Source: Myxococcota bacterium
GTDB lineage: Bacteria; Myxococcota; B64-G9
Reading direction: 5' to 3'
Assembly: GCA_022710975.1 (NCBI GenBank)
Contig: JAKLGA010000007.1
Span: 186,001 to 250,000 of the forward strand
DNA length: 64,000 nucleotides
The translations under genes and the position numbers were made by a program. Each line of letters starts with the position of its first letter. The stretch's first letter is position 1. This document shows positions 11,979 through 23,984 of this stretch, piece after piece. Under the pieces are notes generated by a model, which was not told where the DNA came from, did no database searches, and worked only from the letters and a program-made list of their open reading frames with translations.

Positions 11979-13604
11979 ATGCACGCCGACGCGCTCCCCG
12001 CCGAGGGCTCCTGGGACGTGGTGGTGGTGGGCTTCGGCGCCGCCGGGGCCTCGGCCGCGCTGCAGGCGGCCGAGGAGGGCGCGCGGGTGCTCGTGCTCGA
12101 GCGCTTCGACGGCGGCGGCTCGACCCGCCGCTGCGGCGGGGTGATCTACGCCGGGGGCGGCACGCCGGCCCAGCGCGCGGCGGGCTTCGCCGACCGGCCC
12201 GAGCACATGCTGGCCTACCTGAGGCGGGAGACGCGCGGGGAGGCGGACCCGGAGGCGCTGGAGGCCTTCTGCGCGCGCAGCCGGGTGGATCTGGCCTGGC
12301 TGGCCGCCCACGGGCTCGACTTCCCCACCGCCTTCCACCCGCACAAGTCCGTGGTCCCCCCGGAGGGGACCGGGCTGTACTACTCGGGCAACGAGCACGG
12401 CGGCCCGCCCCCGCAGGCGCCGCGCGGGCACCTGCCGGACGGCCACGGCCAGCGCGGCAAGGAGATCTTCGCCGGGCTGGCGCGGGCGGTGCGCACCGCC
12501 GGGATCGAGGTGCGCACCCGCCACCGCGTCACCCGGCTGCTGCGGGACGGGGCGGGGCGGGTGACCGGCGTGGAGGCCCTGCGCCTGCCCGGCGCCGGGC
12601 CCGCGGCGGCCGCACACGACGCGCTGTTCGGGGCGGCGCTCGCCTCGCGCGCGGCCATGGGGCCGCTCGGGGCCTTCGAGCGCAGGCTCGGCCGTCCGAC
12701 GACCTTCGGCGCGCGCGGCGGGGTGGTGCTGGCTGCGGGCGGGTTCGCCTTCGACGTGCGCATGCTCGCGGAGTACGCGCCCGCCTTCCGGGGCTGCATG
12801 CCGCTCGGCACGCCCGGCGACGACGGCGCCGGCATCCGCCTGGGGGCGGAGGCCGGGGGGGCCCTGGACGCCATGGACCGCTGCGCCGCCTGGCGCTTCA
12901 TGTACCCGCCCGAGGCGTTCCTGCGGGGCGTGCTGGTCAACGCCCGCGGCGAGCGCTTCTGCGACGAGAGCCAGTACGGGGCGACCGTCGGTCGGAACAT
13001 CTCCGAGCAGCCCGGCGGGCACGCCTGGCTCGTCGTGGACGCGGCCGTGGTGCGCGCGGTGCGCGCCGAGGCCGCGGCGGACGAGCGCCTGCGCGATCGG
13101 CCGCTCGGCGAGCTCGTGCGCGGCCAGGCCAACGATCTCGTGTTCCGCAAGCTGTCGACCGCGCTCAACCTGGCCGTGAACCGCCGCAAGGCGCGGACCG
13201 CGGCAGGGCTCGAGCGGGCCTGCGGCCTGCCCGTGGGCGCGCTCGAGCGCACGCTGGCCGAGCACAACGCCCGGGCGCACGCGGGCGGCCCGGATCCGTT
13301 CGGCAAGCCCGCCGCGCTGCTCACGCCGCTCGAGGAGCCGCCCTTCCTGGCCATCGTGTGCGACCTCGACAGCAAGCTCTTCCTGGGCCCGTGCTTCACC
13401 CTGGGCGGGCTGCGGACCCACGCGCTCAGCGGCGCGGTGCTGGACGCGCAGCGCGCCCCCATCCCGGGGCTGTACGCGGCCGGGCGCAACGCCGTGGGGC
13501 TGTGCACCGGTGGCTACGTGAGCGGCCTGTCCATCGCCGACTGCGTGTTCGCCGGCCGCAACGCCGGCCGCAGCGCGGCCCGCGCCGTCACTGCGCCGAC
13601 TTGA
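11979..13604 (+). CDS. FAD-dependent dehydrogenase related to 3-ketosteroid-delta1-dehydrogenase / fumarate reductase flavoprotein
   Basis: 541 residues from the ATG at 11979. The FAD dinucleotide fold is clear: VVGFGAAG at 17-23 and acidic E41 at the end of beta-2, with the C-terminal FAD-contact block GLYAAGRNAVG and GGYVSGLSIADCVFAGR. This architecture (FAD_binding_2 with an inserted catalytic cap) covers KstD, flavocytochrome c fumarate reductase and urocanate reductase. The fumarate-reductase heme and twin-Arg features are not evident, and the neighbours are SDR/3beta-HSD-like, so steroid or related ring dehydrogenation is favoured. The 3' end overlaps the convergent AgmX-type gene by 17 nt. 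Confidence 0.8.
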   Translation: MHADALPAEGSWDVVVVGFGAAGASAALQAAEEGARVLVLERFDGGGSTRRCGGVIYAGGGTPAQRAAGFADRPEHMLAYLRRETRGEADPEALEAFCARSRVDLAWLAAHGLDFPTAFHPHKSVVPPEGTGLYYSGNEHGGPPPQAPRGHLPDGHGQRGKEIFAGLARAVRTAGIEVRTRHRVTRLLRDGAGRVTGVEALRLPGAGPAAAAHDALFGAALASRAAMGPLGAFERRLGRPTTFGARGGVVLAAGGFAFDVRMLAEYAPAFRGCMPLGTPGDDGAGIRLGAEAGGALDAMDRCAAWRFMYPPEAFLRGVLVNARGERFCDESQYGATVGRNISEQPGGHAWLVVDAAVVRAVRAEAAADERLRDRPLGELVRGQANDLVFRKLSTALNLAVNRRKARTAAGLERACGLPVGALERTLAEHNARAHAGGPDPFGKPAALLTPLEEPPFLAIVCDLDSKLFLGPCFTLGGLRTHALSGAVLDAQRAPIPGLYAAGRNAVGLCTGGYVSGLSIADCVFAGRNAGRSAARAVTAPT

Positions 13605-16600
13605 AGACCAGCGGGTAGGTCACGTTCACCACCCCGCCGCCCTTGGGCGCGGGGAAGCGCAGGCGCTGGAAGACCTTCTGCACGCAGCCCGCGACCGCCG
13701 GGCTCTTCAGCTCGTCGTCCACGATCTCGGCCCGGCTGACCTGGCCCTCCGGGCCGATGACGAACTTCACCTTGAGCTTACCCTCGAGCTTGGGGTCCCG
13801 GAGCAGCTCCTTCTCGTAGCAGTAGCGCACCTGCGCCTGGTGCTGCTTGATCACCCGGCGGATGATCTCCTTGGGCAGGGGGCCGGTCAGGAGCGGGCCA
13901 CCCGCCTGGACCACGGGCTGCTTGCCCAGCCGCCCGGTCCCCAGCCCGCGGCCCGTCAGGCAGTCCCGGCAGCCCAGTCCCCCGAGGCCGCCGACCCCCT
14001 CACCGTCGAGGCTGCCTAGCGCGCTGCTCAGGCCTCCACCGTCCCCGCCCCTCAGCAGGTCGAGCATGCCGCCGGCGCGTTGGACCGCCGCTTGCCCGCT
14101 GCCGAAGGCCCGGTCGTAGCGGGCCTGGTCCGTGGGCCCAAGGATCACCTTGCGCGGCTGGTGACGCCCCCTGCAGGCCAGCGCCCCGGCCAGCGCGGCC
14201 ACGTCCTCCCAGGGGGTGTCCGGGGCCGGATCGAGGTAGACCGGCGCCTCCGCGAGCCCGACCCGGGCGAGCTGGTCGACGGCGAAGCCCGCGTCCACGC
14301 ACGGCCGGTCCTCGGGGCAGGTGGCCACCGGCGCGGGGCTGGCCGACTCGCCGCCACCCACCACCTCCAGCCGGCCGCCCGGGCCGACCCGGACCAGGCC
14401 GCAGTCGTCCGGGCCGAGCGCCTGGCGACCCTCCTCCGCGGGGATGATGAAGCGGGCGAAGCGATCCTCCGCCGCGGGTGCCCACAGGCTCTCGGTCGCG
14501 GCCGCCGGCCGGCCGTCGATGCCCATGCGCGACGCGGGCGGCGGCGCCGCCGGCGCGGCCGCCGCGGGCGCGGGGCCGGCCGGGAGCTCCACGCTCACGC
14601 CCTGGTTGCCCCCGTCGCCGGCCACGGCCAGGACGAGCAGGCGCGTCCCCGGCCCGGCCAGGGTTCGCAGGACCTCGAGGGCCTGGCCAGCCAGTGCCCG
14701 GCGATCCGCGGCCAGCCCGAACGGCCCATCGCCCGGAGGCGGCAGCGCGGGCGTCGCGCCCCCGGCCGGGAGCCGGGCGAGCTTCCAGCCCTGCAGGCCG
14801 GTCCCGCACACGGTCTCGACCCTGGGGAGCTCGAGCCGCGGCGTCTCCGAGAGCCTGGCCTTGCGCGCGCAGGCCTCCTCCACGCCCTGCTCGCAGCCGA
14901 TCGCCAGGACCCGCGCGAGCTCGTCCTGGCGCAGCTCGCCCTCGTGGAGATCGGCGATCGCCAGGAACAGGCTGCGCTGCAAGCGGCGCGCCTGCTGCTC
15001 GGTCTCCGGCTCGGCCAGGGCGCAGGGGAGCTGCCGGCTGGCCTCCTCCATGGCCCGGGCCAGCACCAGCCCCTTCTGCGACGGGTCCACCGCGGCCAGC
15101 GCGCGGAAGCCCTCGGTCATGCCGCGGGTCACCCCGGCCAGGCACACGGCCCCGCGCCCCGCCGCCGCCCGGGCGCCCGGCGACTCCCAGGCCCACACGG
15201 CCCCCTCGGCGCCCCAGGCCGGCGCCTCCCCCTCGGCGGGCGGGCCGAGCACCGCCTCGCCCTGCAGCCAGCGGCCCTGCAGCCGGCTCCAACCGCGCAG
15301 GCCGCCGAGCCGCGCCAGGATCGCGGCCGCCTCGGGCGCCTCGCCCCGCAGTCCGTCGGCCAGGCCGCGGAGATCCAGACGCACCTCGCCCAGCAACCCA
15401 TGCCCCGCCGGCCCGTCCTCGACGGCGGGCTCCGGGCCACGGAACACCCGCTCGGCCGACTCGTTCAGGCCGAACCACACCCGGGTGTCCTCCGGCCGGA
15501 CCTCGGTGCGCCACAGGACGCCCAGCCCCGCCCGGGCCCCGGCCTCGCGCAGCTCGCCCACCGCCCGCTCCAGGGCCGCGAGGTTCACGCCCACGGGCAG
15601 GCTGGCCACCGCGACCACCGCCGGGGCGGTCGCCAGCCCGGCCGGCAGCGACCCCACGGCCAGGCCCAGGCCGCGCGGCAGGGGGATGGGGAGGTCGGCC
15701 GGCAGGAAGCGCCACAGCGCCTTCAGCAGCCCCAGCGGCGCACGCAGGCCGAAGTGCAGCATGCAGAAGCCGCCGCACTCCTGCACCCGCCGGGCGAGCT
15801 CCTCCATGTCCTTCGCGTCCGCCAGCCCGGGCGGCAGCTCGGCCGCGGCCACGGCCGCGGCGAGATCCAGCCGCATCCACGAGCTCAGGCTGGCCTGCGG
15901 CAGCTCGGCCGCGGGCAGGCGCGCGCCGCCCTCCAGGCCGCGGGCCCACACGCGCGCGCCCTGCTCGGTGAGCGACAGCACGCTGGCCAGGCGGACGCGC
16001 GGCCCGGCCTGGGCGTCCGCGCCCGGGGCCACGCCCAGCGACCAGGCCCAGTCGTCGATCTCGACGCCGCGCGGATCCATCGCCAGGTAACCCTGGCTGA
16101 CCTCCGCGAGCCCGGCCGCCAGCAGCATGGCCCGGTAGGACGGGTCGGCGAAGCGCACCGCCTGGGCCACCTTCGAGGTACCCACCTGGCCGCCCACGTC
16201 GCGTAGCCACCAGGGGCGGAACCACAGGGTGAGCAGCTCCTGACGGCTCGCGGCGAACAGCAGCGCCGGGGTGAGCGGCCCCTCCCGCGGCGGCGGGGGC
16301 GCCAGCAGGGCCGCCACGGCCTCCAGGCGCGCCTCGGGCGAGGCGAACACGCGGGTGTCGGCCTGCAGGATCTCCACCCGCACCCAGCGCGCCTCGGGCA
16401 CCAGCAGGAGCAGGCTGGCCTCCTCGCCCGGCAGGCGCAGCACCTGGCCGCCCCGCAGGCCGGGCAGCGCGCGGGCCTCGGAGTCGGCCGCGAGCCCGAG
16501 CGGGGCGAGCGCCTCCAGCAGCCCTCCCAGCAGCGCGCGGCTGTCGGTGGCCGGGATGAGCACCCGGTGCCGCAGCCCGCTCGTGCCCAGGGCGGCGGCC

Positions 16601-17034
16601 TCCAGCATCAGCGCCCGGGCGGCCAGCACCGAGTCGTCCACGCTCGGCTCGAACAGCGCCAGCGCGAGCGGCCGCGCGGGGTCCCAGCCGGGCAGCACGC
16701 CCGTGAGCCCCGCGGGCCGCTGGCCGAGGGCCAGCTCCGCCAGCTCGCCCGCGGCGGCCCACAGGTCGGGCTGCGCCAGGATCCGCTCGGCCTCGGGGAG
16801 GCTCTGCCCCCGCAGCAGGTCCGCCGCGGCCCGCGCGCCCTCGGTCCAGGCCGACGGACGCACCAGCGCCACCACGAGCGCCCGATCGCCGGCGGCCCGC
16901 AGGAGCTCGAGCGCGGCGGGCTCGGCCGTCTCGGCCAGGAGCTCGGCGGGATCGGCCGGCCGCTTCGGGCACCCGGACAGGACGAGCGCCAGCAGGACGG
17001 ACCAGGCCACGGACGACAGGCAACGCGTGGGCAT
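13588..17034 (-). CDS. Large lipoprotein with C-terminal AgmX/PglI (TonB-C-like) domain
   Basis: 1148 residues from the ATG at 17034, selected for AAAGGAG 7 nt upstream. The N-terminus is a lipoprotein signal (LVLSGC). The long middle (~30-750) is Ala/Leu-rich with recurring patterns of DUF3352-like surface proteins. A Pro/Ala linker follows, then a paired-Cys region (CRDC). The last ~90 residues (HQAQVRYCYEKELLRDP, GKLKVKFVIGPEGQV) are an AgmX/PglI C-terminal domain, a TonB-C-like module frequent in myxobacteria and tied to gliding and envelope functions. It is divergent from glgP. The exact role is unknown. Confidence 0.8.
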   Translation of the reverse strand: MPTRCLSSVAWSVLLALVLSGCPKRPADPAELLAETAEPAALELLRAAGDRALVVALVRPSAWTEGARAAADLLRGQSLPEAERILAQPDLWAAAGELAELALGQRPAGLTGVLPGWDPARPLALALFEPSVDDSVLAARALMLEAAALGTSGLRHRVLIPATDSRALLGGLLEALAPLGLAADSEARALPGLRGGQVLRLPGEEASLLLLVPEARWVRVEILQADTRVFASPEARLEAVAALLAPPPPREGPLTPALLFAASRQELLTLWFRPWWLRDVGGQVGTSKVAQAVRFADPSYRAMLLAAGLAEVSQGYLAMDPRGVEIDDWAWSLGVAPGADAQAGPRVRLASVLSLTEQGARVWARGLEGGARLPAAELPQASLSSWMRLDLAAAVAAAELPPGLADAKDMEELARRVQECGGFCMLHFGLRAPLGLLKALWRFLPADLPIPLPRGLGLAVGSLPAGLATAPAVVAVASLPVGVNLAALERAVGELREAGARAGLGVLWRTEVRPEDTRVWFGLNESAERVFRGPEPAVEDGPAGHGLLGEVRLDLRGLADGLRGEAPEAAAILARLGGLRGWSRLQGRWLQGEAVLGPPAEGEAPAWGAEGAVWAWESPGARAAAGRGAVCLAGVTRGMTEGFRALAAVDPSQKGLVLARAMEEASRQLPCALAEPETEQQARRLQRSLFLAIADLHEGELRQDELARVLAIGCEQGVEEACARKARLSETPRLELPRVETVCGTGLQGWKLARLPAGGATPALPPPGDGPFGLAADRRALAGQALEVLRTLAGPGTRLLVLAVAGDGGNQGVSVELPAGPAPAAAAPAAPPPASRMGIDGRPAAATESLWAPAAEDRFARFIIPAEEGRQALGPDDCGLVRVGPGGRLEVVGGGESASPAPVATCPEDRPCVDAGFAVDQLARVGLAEAPVYLDPAPDTPWEDVAALAGALACRGRHQPRKVILGPTDQARYDRAFGSGQAAVQRAGGMLDLLRGGDGGGLSSALGSLDGEGVGGLGGLGCRDCLTGRGLGTGRLGKQPVVQAGGPLLTGPLPKEIIRRVIKQHQAQVRYCYEKELLRDPKLEGKLKVKFVIGPEGQVSRAEIVDDELKSPAVAGCVQKVFQRLRFPAPKGGGVVNVTYPLVFKSAQ

Positions 17035-17139
17035 GGGGAGCTCCTTTCGGGCCATCCTTGCAAGTAGACGGACCCTTTTCAACCCTGCCCGCGTGTGCTC
17101 TACTGCACGGCGGAACACACAGAACCAGCGAGGTGAGCG

Positions 17140-19623
<2,484 letters not shown>

Positions 19624-19737: not shown

Positions 19738-19765
19738 CTCGGCTGTCCCGGGAGGAGGAGAGCGC

Positions 19766-21055
19766 GTGCGCCTGGTCGAGTTCGCCGCCCAGCTCGAGCG
19801 CGAGGGCATGCTGTTGCGCGTGTCGCGCGAGGTGGACCCGCGCTTCGAGCTGGCCGCCGTCATCCGCGCGCTGCGCGGCCGCCCGGCGCTGTTCGAGCGC
19901 GTGCGCGGCCACGCCCTGCCGGTGGCCTCCAACCTGTGCGCCAGCCGCGCGCTGGTCGCCCGCGCGCTCGGCTGCGCGCCGGGCGAGCTGCTCCCCCGCC
20001 TGAGCGCGGCCGCGGACGAGCCCCGCCCGCCGCCGGTAGAGCCGGGGGCCGGCCTGTACGAGGAGCGCCCGGTGGACCTGGGCGCGCTGCCGGTGCTCAC
20101 CCACTACCCGCAGGACGGCGGGCCGTACATCGCCTCGGGCGTGGCGGTGGCGGTCGATCCGCAGCACGGCCGCAACGCGAGCTTCCACCGGGCCATGCTG
20201 CGCGGCCCGGGCTCGCTGGCGCTCAGGCTGGTCGAGCGCCACCTGCACCTGTACCGCCAGCGCGGGCTCACGCGCTTTGCCTTCTGCATCGGCAACCCCG
20301 TGCCCGTGCTGCTGGCGGCCGCCATGTCGGTGGAGCTCGGGGTGGACGAGCTCGGGGTGGCCCACGCGCTCGCGCCCAGCCCGCTGGTCGAGCTGGCCGG
20401 CCTGCGGGTGCCGCCCGCGGAGCAGGTGCTGGTGTGCGAGTTCACCGGCGAGCTGGTGGACGAGGGCCCGTTCGTGGACCTGACCGAGACCCCGGACATC
20501 GTCCGCTCCCAGCCCGCGGTGCGGGTCGAGCGGATGTTCGTGCGCCGCGGGCCGAGCCTGTTCCACGCGCTCCTGCCCGGGGACCTCGAGCACAAGCTGC
20601 TGATGGGCATGCCGCGCGAGCCGACCATCTTCCGCGAGGTGTCGAAGGTGTGCGAGTGCCTGGACGTGCGCATCACCCCGGGCGGTTGCTCGTGGCTGCA
20701 CGCCGCCGTGCGCATCCGGAAGCGCGGGCCCGAGGACGGCCGGCGGGCCATCGCGGCCGCCTTCCGCGGGCACCGCTCGCTGAAGCACGTGTGGGTGGTG
20801 GACGAGGACGTCGACCTCGACCGGCCGGCCGAGCTCGAGTGGGCCATGGCCACCCGCTTCCAGGGGCACCGGGATCTGGTAATCCGGGAGGACGAGCCGG
20901 GCTCGTCGCTCGATCCGTCCGCGGACCTCGACACCAGCCACACCACCAAGCTGGGCTTCGACCTCACCGTCCCCGACCTGGCCCGGGCCGCGGAGTTCCG
21001 CAAGGTCCCCCCGCCGCTCGTGGTGCGGCTCGAGGACTACGGGATCCCGCCGTGA
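19766..21055 (+). CDS. UbiD-family prenyl-FMN decarboxylase, probable anhydromevalonate phosphate decarboxylase
   Basis: 429 residues from GTG at 19766, chosen for the strong site GGGAGGAGGAG 5 nt upstream. UbiD-family residues are visible: N137 and R142 (NASFHRAM) for prenyl-FMN binding, E233 and D238 (EGPFVD) as the acid pair. The segments GPFVDLTETPDIVRSQP and LLPGDLEHKLLMGMP resemble archaeal UbiD homologues more than the GPFGDHTGYY form of ubiquinone UbiD. In archaea this family member decarboxylates trans-anhydromevalonate 5-phosphate to isopentenyl phosphate. Aconitase-X, UbiX and IPK in the same operon support that role; assignment by context and motif, not by assay. The stop overlaps the next start. 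Confidence 0.85.
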   Translation: MRLVEFAAQLEREGMLLRVSREVDPRFELAAVIRALRGRPALFERVRGHALPVASNLCASRALVARALGCAPGELLPRLSAAADEPRPPPVEPGAGLYEERPVDLGALPVLTHYPQDGGPYIASGVAVAVDPQHGRNASFHRAMLRGPGSLALRLVERHLHLYRQRGLTRFAFCIGNPVPVLLAAAMSVELGVDELGVAHALAPSPLVELAGLRVPPAEQVLVCEFTGELVDEGPFVDLTETPDIVRSQPAVRVERMFVRRGPSLFHALLPGDLEHKLLMGMPREPTIFREVSKVCECLDVRITPGGCSWLHAAVRIRKRGPEDGRRAIAAAFRGHRSLKHVWVVDEDVDLDRPAELEWAMATRFQGHRDLVIREDEPGSSLDPSADLDTSHTTKLGFDLTVPDLARAAEFRKVPPPLVVRLEDYGIPP

Positions 21056-22269
21056 GCGCGACCCGGCTCGAGCTCGACGACGGCCAGCGCGCGCTCCTGG
21101 CGGGCCAGGCGGGCGGCTGGGTCCAGCGCCTGATGCGGCTGCTGGTGCGGCTGGGGGAGATCTACGGCGCCCGGCGCCTGCTGCCGGTCGCCTCGGTCCA
21201 GGTCTCGGGCGTGTCCTACAAGTCGCTGGGCGAGCCCGGGCTCGCCTTCCTCGAGGAGCTCTCGCAGAGCGGCGCCCGGGTGCGGGCGCTGACCAGCCTG
21301 AACCCCTCGGGGGTGGATCCCGAGCGGGCGGCGGAGCTCGGCTTCCCCGCGGACTTCGTCGAGCGGCAGGCGCGCATCATGGCGGCCTTCGCCCGGCTGG
21401 GCGTGCTCGGCTCGGCCACCTGCACCCCCTACCAGGCCGGGCTCCTGCCCCGCTTCGGCCAGCACCTGGCCTGGGCCGAGTCGTCCTCGGTGGCCTTCGC
21501 CAACGCGGTCCTGGGCGCGCGCACCAACCGCGAGGGCGGACCCTCGGCCCTGGCCGCGGCCGTGTGCGGCTGCACCCCCGAGCACGGCCTGCACCTCGAC
21601 CAGGCGCGCCGGCCCACCCACCGGGTGCGGGTCGAGGCCGAGCTCGGCTCGACGGCCGACCACGGCGCCCTGGGAGTGTGGGTCGGCCGGCGGGTGGGCG
21701 CGGGGGTGCCCTACTTCGAGGCGCTCGGCGCGGCCGGCCCGGGCGCGGACGAGCTCAAGGCGCTGGGCGCGGCCATGGCCGCCAGCGGCGCGGTGGCCAT
21801 GTACCACGTGGCCGGGGTCACGCCCGAGGCGGCGCGGCACGATCCGGCCGGGCTGCCCGAGCTCCGCGTGGGCCGCGCCGAGCTCGACCAGGTGTACGCC
21901 GAGCTCGGCCCGGGGGACGGGGCGGGCGAGCCCGACCTGCTGGTGACCGGCTGCCCGCACGCCTCCCTGGAGGAGATCGCCGCGCTGTCCGGCCGGCTGG
22001 CGGGCAAGCGGCTCCGGCGGCCCCTGTGGGTGTGCACCTCGGCCTTCGTCCGCGAGGCCGCCCGGCGCCTGGGGCTGGCCGGGCCGCTCGAGGCGGCCGG
22101 CGGCCGGCTGGTGGCCGACACCTGCCCGGTGGTCGCGCCCATCGAGCGCATGGGCTTCCGCTGCACCGGGGTGGACTCGGGCAAGGCGGCCTGCTACCTG
22201 CCCGGCCTGTGCCAGCAGCGGGTGGTCTTCCGGCCCCTGGAGGAGCTGCTCGAGGAGGCGCTGGCATGA
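21052..22269 (+). CDS. Aconitase X (AcnX) large subunit, probable phosphomevalonate dehydratase large subunit
   Basis: 405 residues from GTG at 21052, overlapping the UbiD-family stop by 4 nt. AcnX hallmarks are present: SGVSYKSLG near 52-60, C124 in SATCTPY, the block GARTNREGGPSALAAA at ~155-170, C301 (TGCPHASLEE) and C358 (ADTCPV). These three cysteines are the likely [4Fe-4S] ligands. Large and small subunits are separate genes, as in archaeal phosphomevalonate dehydratase, whereas bacterial cis-3-hydroxyproline dehydratases are usually a single fused chain. The predicted reaction is mevalonate 5-phosphate to trans-anhydromevalonate 5-phosphate plus water. Other hydroxyacid substrates remain possible. 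Confidence 0.87.
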   Translation: MSATRLELDDGQRALLAGQAGGWVQRLMRLLVRLGEIYGARRLLPVASVQVSGVSYKSLGEPGLAFLEELSQSGARVRALTSLNPSGVDPERAAELGFPADFVERQARIMAAFARLGVLGSATCTPYQAGLLPRFGQHLAWAESSSVAFANAVLGARTNREGGPSALAAAVCGCTPEHGLHLDQARRPTHRVRVEAELGSTADHGALGVWVGRRVGAGVPYFEALGAAGPGADELKALGAAMAASGAVAMYHVAGVTPEAARHDPAGLPELRVGRAELDQVYAELGPGDGAGEPDLLVTGCPHASLEEIAALSGRLAGKRLRRPLWVCTSAFVREAARRLGLAGPLEAAGGRLVADTCPVVAPIERMGFRCTGVDSGKAACYLPGLCQQRVVFRPLEELLEEALA

Positions 22270-22649
22270 AGGCCCGTCCCATCTCCTCCGGGCGGGCCGC
22301 GGGCCCGGCCCTGGTCTCGCCCGCGCCCATCTCCTTCTACGGCGGGGTGGAGGCGACGACCGGCGTGGTGATCGAGCGCGGCCACCCGCTGTGCGGCCGG
22401 TGCGTGGCCGGCCAGGTGCTGGTGTTCCCCGCCGGCAAGGGCTCGACGGTCGGCTCCTACGTGCTCTACGGCCTGGCCAGGAACGGCGTGGCCCCGGCCG
22501 CCCTGGTGGTGGGCGAGGCCGAGACCATCGTGGCGACCGGCGCCATCCTGGCGGACATCCCCTGCGTGGACCGGGTGGCCCTCGACGGCTTCCGGGACGG
22601 TGAGGCGCTCGAGGTGGACGCCGACCGGGGCGAGGTGCGCCGTGCCTGA
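22266..22649 (+). CDS. Aconitase X small subunit (DUF126), probable phosphomevalonate dehydratase small subunit
   Basis: 127 residues from the ATG at 22266, sharing ATGA with the large-subunit stop. It corresponds to the swivel domain of aconitase. PISFYGGVEATTGVV (~21-35) and GKGSTVGSYVLYGL (~57-70) are the signature of the AcnX small subunit; the serine-containing GSTVGS loop supplies an active-site residue in the family. It must pair with the product of the preceding gene. The UbiX gene begins 8 nt inside its 3' end. Confidence 0.88.
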   Translation: MKARPISSGRAAGPALVSPAPISFYGGVEATTGVVIERGHPLCGRCVAGQVLVFPAGKGSTVGSYVLYGLARNGVAPAALVVGEAETIVATGAILADIPCVDRVALDGFRDGEALEVDADRGEVRRA

Positions 22650-23205
22650 GCCGCGCCGGATCGTGCTCGGCCTGAGCGGCGCCTCGGGCGCGCCGCTCGG
22701 GGTGCGCGCCCTGGAGCTGCTCCACGCGGCCGGGTGCGAGGTGCACCTGGTGGTGAGCGAGGCGGCCCGGGCGGTGCTCGCTGCCGAGTGCCAGCGCACC
22801 GCCGAGTCGCTCGCCCCCCTGGCCCACCGGGTGCACGATCCGCGCGACTTCTGCGCGCCCATCGCCTCGGGCTCGTTCCGCTGCGACGGCATGCTGATCG
22901 CGCCCTGCAGCATGAAGTCGCTGGCCGGGATCGCCCACGGCTACGCGGACAACCTCCTGCTGCGGGCCGCGGACGTGTGCCTCAAGGAGCGGCGCCGGCT
23001 GGTGCTGGTCGCGCGCGAGGCGCCGCTGTCGCTCATCCACCTCGAGAACATGCGCCTGGTGACCCTGGCCGGCGGGATCATCCTGCCGCCCGTGCTCGGC
23101 TTCTACACGAGGCCCGCGAGCCTGGCCGAGGCGGTGGACCAGATCTGCGGCAAGGCGCTCGAGCTGCTGGGCGTCGAGAGCGAGGTCTACCGGCGATGGG
23201 AGTGA
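22642..23205 (+). CDS. ubiX: UbiX flavin prenyltransferase
   Basis: 187 residues from GTG at 22642. GLSGASGAPLG (10-20) is the nucleotide-binding start of UbiX. CSMKSLAGIAHGYADNLLLR, LKERRRLVLVAREAPLS and the C-terminal FYTRP block are diagnostic. UbiX joins dimethylallyl phosphate to FMN to make prenyl-FMN, the cofactor needed by UbiD-family decarboxylases, so it supplies the first enzyme of this operon. Notably the operon also makes isopentenyl phosphate, one isomerisation away from UbiX's own substrate. It overlaps both neighbours. Confidence 0.95.
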   Translation: MPEPRRIVLGLSGASGAPLGVRALELLHAAGCEVHLVVSEAARAVLAAECQRTAESLAPLAHRVHDPRDFCAPIASGSFRCDGMLIAPCSMKSLAGIAHGYADNLLLRAADVCLKERRRLVLVAREAPLSLIHLENMRLVTLAGGIILPPVLGFYTRPASLAEAVDQICGKALELLGVESEVYRRWE

Positions 23206-23984
23206 GCCCCGCCCCGGAGCGCTGCCTGGTGAAGCTGGGCGGCTCGCTCATCACCGACAAGTCCCGCCCCTACACGCTCCGGGCCGGGGTGCTCGAGCGG
23301 CTGGCGCGGGAGATCCACCAGGCGCGCCTGGAGCGCCCGCTGGCGCTGGTGCTGGGCCACGGCGGCGGCTCCTTCCCGCACGTCTCGGCCAGCCGCTACC
23401 GCACGGCCGAGGGAGCCGTGGACGACCGCTCCTGGGAAGGCTTCCTGCGCGTGCACGCGGACGCGGCCCTGCTGAACGCGCAGGTCTGCCGGGCGCTCGA
23501 GCTCGGCGGCGAGCGGCCCTTCCCGCTGGCCCCCTCGGCCGGCGCCACGGCCCGGGCCGGGCGCATCGAGCGCTGGGACACGCGCCCGCTCGAGCTCCTG
23601 CTGCAGGCCGGGGTGCTGCCGGTGGTGTACGGCGACGTGCTGGTGGACGAGGCCCAGGGTTGCGCCATCGCCTCCACCGAGGAGCTCTTCCGCTGGCTGG
23701 CCCGGGCGCTCCGGCCCACGCGCGTGCTGCTGGTCGGCAAGGTGGACGGGGTGCTGGACGGGCGCGGGGCGCTCCTCCCCGAGATATCCCAGGCGGACCT
23801 GCCCCGCGTCCGCGCGGACCTCCGGCCCTCGGACGGCGCCGCGGACGTGACCGGCGGCATGCTGCACAAGGTGGAGCGCACGCTGGAGACGGGCGTGCCC
23901 ACGCTCATCCTGAACGGGCTGGTCCCGGACCGGCTGCGGCTGGCGCTGCTGGGCGAGGATGTGCCCGGCACTCGAGTCCACTAG
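23196..23984 (+). CDS. Isopentenyl phosphate kinase (IPK)
   Basis: 262 residues from the ATG at 23196, overlapping the UbiX stop by 10 nt; GTG at 23202 (4-nt overlap) is an alternative start. This amino-acid-kinase fold protein carries the IPK signature: K13-LGGSLITDK22 at the N-terminus, GHGGGSFPH (54-62) with H62 at the place of the catalytic histidine of archaeal IPKs, and DVTGGM near the C-terminus. The histidine separates IPK from UMP, glutamate and fosfomycin kinases. It phosphorylates isopentenyl phosphate to isopentenyl diphosphate with ATP. It is the last gene of the operon, ending with TAG. Confidence 0.92.
   Translation: MGVSPAPERCLVKLGGSLITDKSRPYTLRAGVLERLAREIHQARLERPLALVLGHGGGSFPHVSASRYRTAEGAVDDRSWEGFLRVHADAALLNAQVCRALELGGERPFPLAPSAGATARAGRIERWDTRPLELLLQAGVLPVVYGDVLVDEAQGCAIASTEELFRWLARALRPTRVLLVGKVDGVLDGRGALLPEISQADLPRVRADLRPSDGAADVTGGMLHKVERTLETGVPTLILNGLVPDRLRLALLGEDVPGTRVH

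Follow-up and report, generated by a model that had tools for sequence, protein, structure and literature searches.

A predicted archaeal-type lower mevalonate branch in a Myxococcota-type bacterium, and a mevalonate kinase joined to HMG-CoA reductase at the locus of the classical genes

The archaeal modified mevalonate pathway is known from Aeropyrum pernix (Hayakawa et al. 2018, as cited in PMC10040528 and PMC8184944), and a passage of PMC10040528 describes the anhydromevalonate route as unique to archaea. An archaeal mevalonate pathway has also been ascribed to Candidatus Promineifilum breve of the Chloroflexota (Kanno et al. 2024, Appl Environ Microbiol 90:e0110624, as cited in PMC13001223), and the same citing source gives a route with phosphomevalonate decarboxylase and isopentenyl phosphate kinase (IPK) for haloarchaea, Roseiflexus and some Chloroflexota (Dellas et al. 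2013). The subject here is a five-gene operon at positions 19766-23984 (+) of the window, by which is meant the whole 64,000-nucleotide stretch analysed (G000:C27:186001-250000), in a genome, G000, of 7.13 Mb in 29 contigs (98.63% complete, 2.08% contamination). It is very likely, in our judgement, that this operon encodes an archaeal-type lower mevalonate branch of archaeal origin, that the branch has replaced the classical phosphomevalonate kinase (PMK) and diphosphomevalonate decarboxylase (MDC), that mevalonate kinase (MVK) and HMG-CoA reductase (HMGR) became fused, and that all of this stands beside the methylerythritol phosphate (MEP) pathway.

The operon and its enzymes

Gene calls and family matches bear out the five genes at the coordinates and in the order first proposed for them. 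All are intact, and each overlaps the next by 4-10 nt, so they very probably share a single transcript. Their layout is as follows.

19750..19765, + strand: purine-rich ribosome-binding stretch, gggaggagga, ahead of the first gene (from reading the sequence)
19766..21055, + strand: UbiD-family decarboxylase, predicted trans-anhydromevalonate 5-phosphate decarboxylase; 429 aa, GTG start
21052..22269, + strand: aconitase X large subunit (AcnX-L), predicted large subunit of mevalonate 5-phosphate dehydratase; 405 aa, with a GTG start that overlaps the stop codon of UbiD
22266..22649, + strand: aconitase X small (swivel) subunit (AcnX-S); 127 aa, ATG start
22642..23205, + strand: UbiX flavin prenyltransferase, maker of UbiD's prenylated flavin mononucleotide (FMN) cofactor; 187 aa, GTG start
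23196..23984, + strand: IPK; 262 aa, ATG start at 23196, alternative GTG at 23202

The route proposed for these genes is as follows. Mevalonate 5-phosphate, supplied by HMG-CoA synthase (HMGS) and a one-chain MVK-HMGR encoded on another contig, would be dehydrated by AcnX-L/S to trans-anhydromevalonate 5-phosphate, which UbiD, with the prenylated FMN made by UbiX, would decarboxylate to isopentenyl phosphate, and IPK would convert that to isopentenyl diphosphate (IPP). By established biochemistry, such a branch saves one ATP relative to PMK and MDC together, at the price of an iron-sulphur enzyme and prenylated FMN.

The family matches are strong throughout: PF04412 for AcnX-L (E=3e-137), PF01989, the AcnX swivel, for AcnX-S (E=1e-33), and TIGR00148 for UbiD (269.8 bits, cut-off 244.85), together with PF01977, PF20695 and PF20696. 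The cofactor maker that had been proposed to lie within the operon matches TIGR00421 (229.8 bits, cut-off 108.9) and PRK06029 (236.9, cut-off 188). Since a search of the genome with the operon UbiD as query found no second UbiD, this UbiX most likely serves the UbiD encoded beside it. The IPK, which retains His55 and His62, reaches 166.1 bits with NF040647 (cut-off 120, passed in only three of 195 genomes of the phylum), and has 3ll9 (E=1e-32) and 3k4o, archaeal IPKs of known structure, among its matches.

Could the AcnX instead be of hydroxyproline type, and the operon catabolic with no role in isoprenoids? The sole NCBIfam model that matches AcnX-L is the hydroxyproline dehydratase one, and several bacterial groups of type-II AcnX either act on hydroxyproline or have no known function (PMC8184944, PMC10040528). 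However, AcnX-L scores only 252 bits with that model, whose cut-off is 700. Its closest solved structure is the type-IIb TkAcnX of Thermococcus kodakarensis (7cnr, E=2e-90, against 3e-53 for hydroxyproline dehydratase), and AcnX-S matches the small chain, 7cnr_B, at E=3e-38. The contacts of TkAcnX with mevalonate 5-phosphate were taken from PMC8184944 and transferred via an alignment including 80 archaeal sequences. In AcnX-L all three cluster cysteines (Cys124, Cys301, Cys358) are retained, as are Glu143, Ser144, Ser145, Lys378, Tyr382, Asn84 and the Gly53-Val54-Ser55 phosphate loop (in TkAcnX numbering Glu129, Ser130, Ser131, Lys361, Tyr365, Asn79 and Gly48-Val49-Ser50), and AcnX-S retains Ser60, Thr61 and Val62 (Ser62, Thr63 and Val64 of the TkAcnX small subunit). 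Asn53 aside, two TkAcnX positions have changed, Leu27 of the small subunit to Tyr, which is the majority state in the archaeal set (68/73), and Ala47 to Ser, a state shared by 10/80 archaeal homologues. The hydroxyproline-binding Asp203, Ile206, Thr72 and Trp35 of AtAcnX, on the other hand, are Ser52, Ser55 and, in the small subunit, Val62 and Tyr25 here. The site-C cysteine is missing, with valine in its place, and the type-IIb cysteine set is present (in the alignment AtAcnX is represented by 7D2R, with the engineered changes S449C/C510V; the unmodified enzyme carries Ser at this position). On these residues identity as a hydroxyproline dehydratase is rejected, and with an operon that closes with an isopentenyl phosphate kinase, in a genome where the classical lower enzymes were not found, a catabolic role is highly improbable. 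The archaeal-type lower branch is supported by sequence similarity, by the conserved residues, by the arrangement of the genes and by what else the genome encodes.

Classical genes and the fused locus

The evidence of greatest interest lies outside the window: the classical genes are lost, and MVK and HMGR are fused. The original prediction implied an upper pathway elsewhere in the genome and no PMK or MDC, and both turned out so. The steps to mevalonate 5-phosphate (HMGS, HMGR, MVK) are all encoded in G000, outside the window, and the classical PMK and MDC route was not detected in it. For MDC there is no TIGR01240 match, against about 280 bits in both of the sister genomes G004 and G006. The GHMP kinases of G000 number three, galactokinase (by motif), the MVK half of the fusion and IspE, and neither a GHMP gene for MDC or PMK nor a GHMP-type phosphomevalonate decarboxylase of the haloarchaeal or Roseiflexus type was found anywhere in its 7.1 Mb at 98.6% completeness.

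On contig C7 (P0006; L006:12817-14931; G000:C7:117816-119930) a single open frame of 704 aa comprises MVK and a class-II HMGR, with mevalon_kin at 204 bits over residues 4-287 (cut-off 163) and HMG_CoA_R_NAD at 335 bits over residues 315-694 (cut-off 260). Aligned to the sisters' separate proteins, MVK spans residues 3-311 and HMGR 314-697, so that the junction is clean, falling at the end of the one protein and the start of the other. A kinase-reductase fusion of this sort is unusual. Beside it are genes for type-2 IPP isomerase (IDI-2), farnesyl diphosphate (FPP) synthase, a presqualene-diphosphate-synthase-like protein and an oxidosqualene-cyclase-type protein, with the HMGS gene 7.6 kb from IDI-2. 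The cyclase (L006:6169-8121, - strand) has the DCTAE motif and scores 746 bits (cut-off 851), and a DCTAE cyclase near the mevalonate genes is conserved in G000, G004 and G006.

What stands at this locus in the relatives? In G004, of the same family, the order is IDI2-MVK-MDC-PMK-HMGR, followed by squalene genes of HpnC/HpnD/HpnE type, and on the other side are genes for FPP synthase, a DAHP synthase, a U32-like protein and the cyclase; in G006 it is IDI2-MVK-MDC and a further GHMP gene, after which the contig ends. G000 has the same neighbours, with MDC and PMK gone from between and MVK and HMGR joined in frame. The simplest history would be that the operon arrived and took the place of PMK and MDC, that these became dispensable, and that their deletion fused the flanking MVK and HMGR genes; the archaeal branch seems, then, to have replaced the classical one, though the order and direction of the swap are what we infer from the comparison of loci. 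The G+C content of the locus is about 52-54% in G004 (L167) and G006 (L168) against 73% in the window, and the family is for that reason one of wide base composition.

An assembly or binning artefact could in principle have produced both the joining and the apparent loss, in which case the archaeal operon would have been added to a classical pathway that is complete. The draft state of the assembly would allow this, and only one genome has the fused gene. Against it, the open frame is uninterrupted, with G+C at third codon positions (GC3) of 0.94-1.0 in both halves and across the junction, the junction coincides with the sisters' gene boundaries, no MDC or PMK gene of GHMP type turned up in a nearly complete genome, and MDC was also not found in two further AcnX-bearing genomes of myxobacterium type. 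Such an artefact is very unlikely, and replacement with fusion is the preferred account.

As an observation apart, a U32-peptidase-like protein, 69-72% identical between genomes, is encoded at L006:8145-9431 (- strand), L167:13915-15201 and L168:2387-3676. Its gene, which has no NCBIfam match, is close to the cyclase and adjoins a DAHP-synthase/chorismate-mutase gene in the three genomes.

MEP genes, relatives and donor

The absence of MEP genes that had been expected, dxs/dxr in particular, did not hold. In G000 dxr (376 bits), ispE and ispH (224 bits, with its cluster cysteines retained) were all found, and MEP presence was judged on these three genes. Within the family ispH occurs in eight of nine genomes and HMGR in three of nine, and MEP is for this reason probably the base route and mevalonate the extra one. 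A bacterium making isoprenoids by MEP only is ruled out, as the mevalonate genes are present besides dxr, ispE and ispH. Because those three are there too, the archaeal-type route would be a second one beside MEP, and it probably feeds the squalene and cyclase genes at the fused locus and supplies triterpenoid synthesis.

Is the operon perhaps idle or little used, redundant with MEP, and are the mevalonate genes kept for leucine or HMG-CoA metabolism? It is in keeping with this that dxr and ispH look intact in their usual conserved neighbourhoods (rpsB-tsf-pyrH-frr-uppS-cdsA-dxr and cmk-ispH-rpsA), and that the HMGR belongs to a class often named degradative. However, that all five overlapping genes are intact, with codon usage like the host's and their active sites conserved, speaks of long maintenance. 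With PMK and MDC gone and MVK retained, fused in frame to HMGR, the one known outlet for mevalonate 5-phosphate is the archaeal branch. We give disuse very little credence, and return to a working branch beside MEP.

Two further genomes of myxobacterium type, G011 and G195, share the enzyme set. Among the 195 genomes of the phylum AcnX-L was found only in G000 and G011. The latter, 82% complete, encodes AcnX-L/S, a UbiD (43%), IPK and UbiX as a pair, and HMGR-MVK, spread over separate contigs (L012, which is G011:C310, and L163, L164 and L165); at that completeness no ispH, no MDC and no GHMP gene other than galactokinase were found in it, and since these were not found the archaeal-type route may be its sole isoprenoid route. 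G195 ('Deltaproteobacteria bacterium Zod_Metabat.169', L031) has AcnX-L/S-UbiX-IPK at 59/63/54/57% identity and a UbiD at 61%; HMGR and MVK are also present, MDC was not found there, and its contigs look bacterial.

Where did the operon come from? The order MVK-UbiD-AcnXL-AcnXS is widespread in archaea, and the Aenigmatarchaeota locus L039 reads MVK-UbiD-AcnXL-AcnXS-UbiX-IPK-IDI2, its UbiD and AcnXL being separated by two small genes. Identity of the window UbiD to those of the nearest archaeal AcnX operons is 51-59%. UbiD and AcnX-S were added to AcnX-L for donor placement, and in the resulting tree the window pairs with G195 (100/99), both join L039 (99/94), and the group is nested among archaea, while G011 pairs with the archaeon L085 (100/99). 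The IPK tree unites the window, G195 and L039 (100/100). The donor would have been an archaeon, most likely a relative of Aenigmatarchaeota L039. A single acquisition shared by G000, G195 and G011 is rejected by the approximately unbiased (AU) test (p-AU 1.6e-5), with caution due to the long branch of G011. By these trees the branch appears to have been gained at least twice in the phylum, and the case, first put forward as independent, is separate from at least one other there. Apart from this, an IPK (134 bits, cut-off 120) is encoded at L127 (G129:C7:387697-388434) in a genome that has three tandem GHMP genes beside HMGR and no AcnX.

Archaeal contig contamination is ruled out. The operon genes have GC3 of 0.97-0.985, against 0.977 in the glycogen phosphorylase gene that flanks them upstream (17140-19623), and they sit inside a 346-kb contig among bacterial neighbours. 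One of these, about 2.7 kb upstream (13588-17055, - strand), encodes a protein of 1155 aa with an AgmX/PglI C-terminal domain (NF033768, 105 bits, cut-off 40), whose end also resembles the gliding protein GltG. Because that domain is myxobacterial, it points to the phylum Myxococcota, and the suggestion of a Myxococcota-like host is thereby supported.

Several points weigh against the interpretation as a whole. HMGS scores 352.5, just below the curated cut-off of 360.35, both of its Pfam domains being found; the MVK-HMGR fusion is known from one draft assembly; a phosphate contact of TkAcnX, Asn53, has Ser as its counterpart in the window, although Ser is also what 70/80 archaeal homologues have; the AcnX-L tree alone does not settle the donor; with dxr, ispE and ispH present the operon need not be essential; and the enzyme activities, like the use made of the IPP, are predicted from sequence.

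Comparison with known systems

The Chloroflexota precedent mentioned in the original prediction is real, in so far as PMC13001223 cites it. The route is thus already known in archaea and in one member of the Chloroflexota; the swap, the fusion and the repeated gain appear to be new. Literature searches returned nothing relevant on a natural MVK-HMGR fusion or on this route in Myxococcota, which is not proof of absence. Somewhat probable, in addition, is the fuller picture of a functional cross-domain replacement of half a pathway, with a bifunctional MVK-HMGR, MEP serving general needs, the hybrid route supplying cyclised triterpenoids, and at least two gains in the phylum. This would make a second bacterial group with the anhydromevalonate route, of three genomes and at least two separate acquisitions, and as close relatives still carry the replaced genes the advantage of the archaeal branch is directly testable.

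With the pathway of Aeropyrum pernix the operon shares a heterodimeric type-IIb AcnX, a UbiD-type decarboxylase with UbiX, an IPK, and the same cluster cysteines and substrate contacts; it differs in its bacterial host, which carries MEP genes too, in having all five lower-branch genes in a single overlapping operon, and in that MVK and HMGR are one polypeptide. With Ca. Promineifilum breve, compared by citation only, it shares an archaeal-type mevalonate pathway in an uncultured bacterium, but G000 belongs to another phylum, its sisters carry the classical genes, its old locus shows a deletion with fusion, and it has kept MEP genes. As in the haloarchaeal and Roseiflexus route, an isopentenyl phosphate kinase comes at the end; the step taken there by a GHMP-family decarboxylase would fall to AcnX and UbiD in G000. 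Hydroxyproline dehydratase AcnX is of the same fold and family as the AcnX of the window, and differs in binding residues, in cysteine set and in that the operon here is without proline-pathway genes. A further comparison is with the classical cluster of G004 and G006, where the same locus holds FPP synthase, IDI-2, MVK, the cyclase and the U32-like gene (HMGR being seen in G004); unlike in G000, MVK and HMGR are separated by MDC and PMK in G004, and in G006 MVK is followed by MDC and one more GHMP gene.

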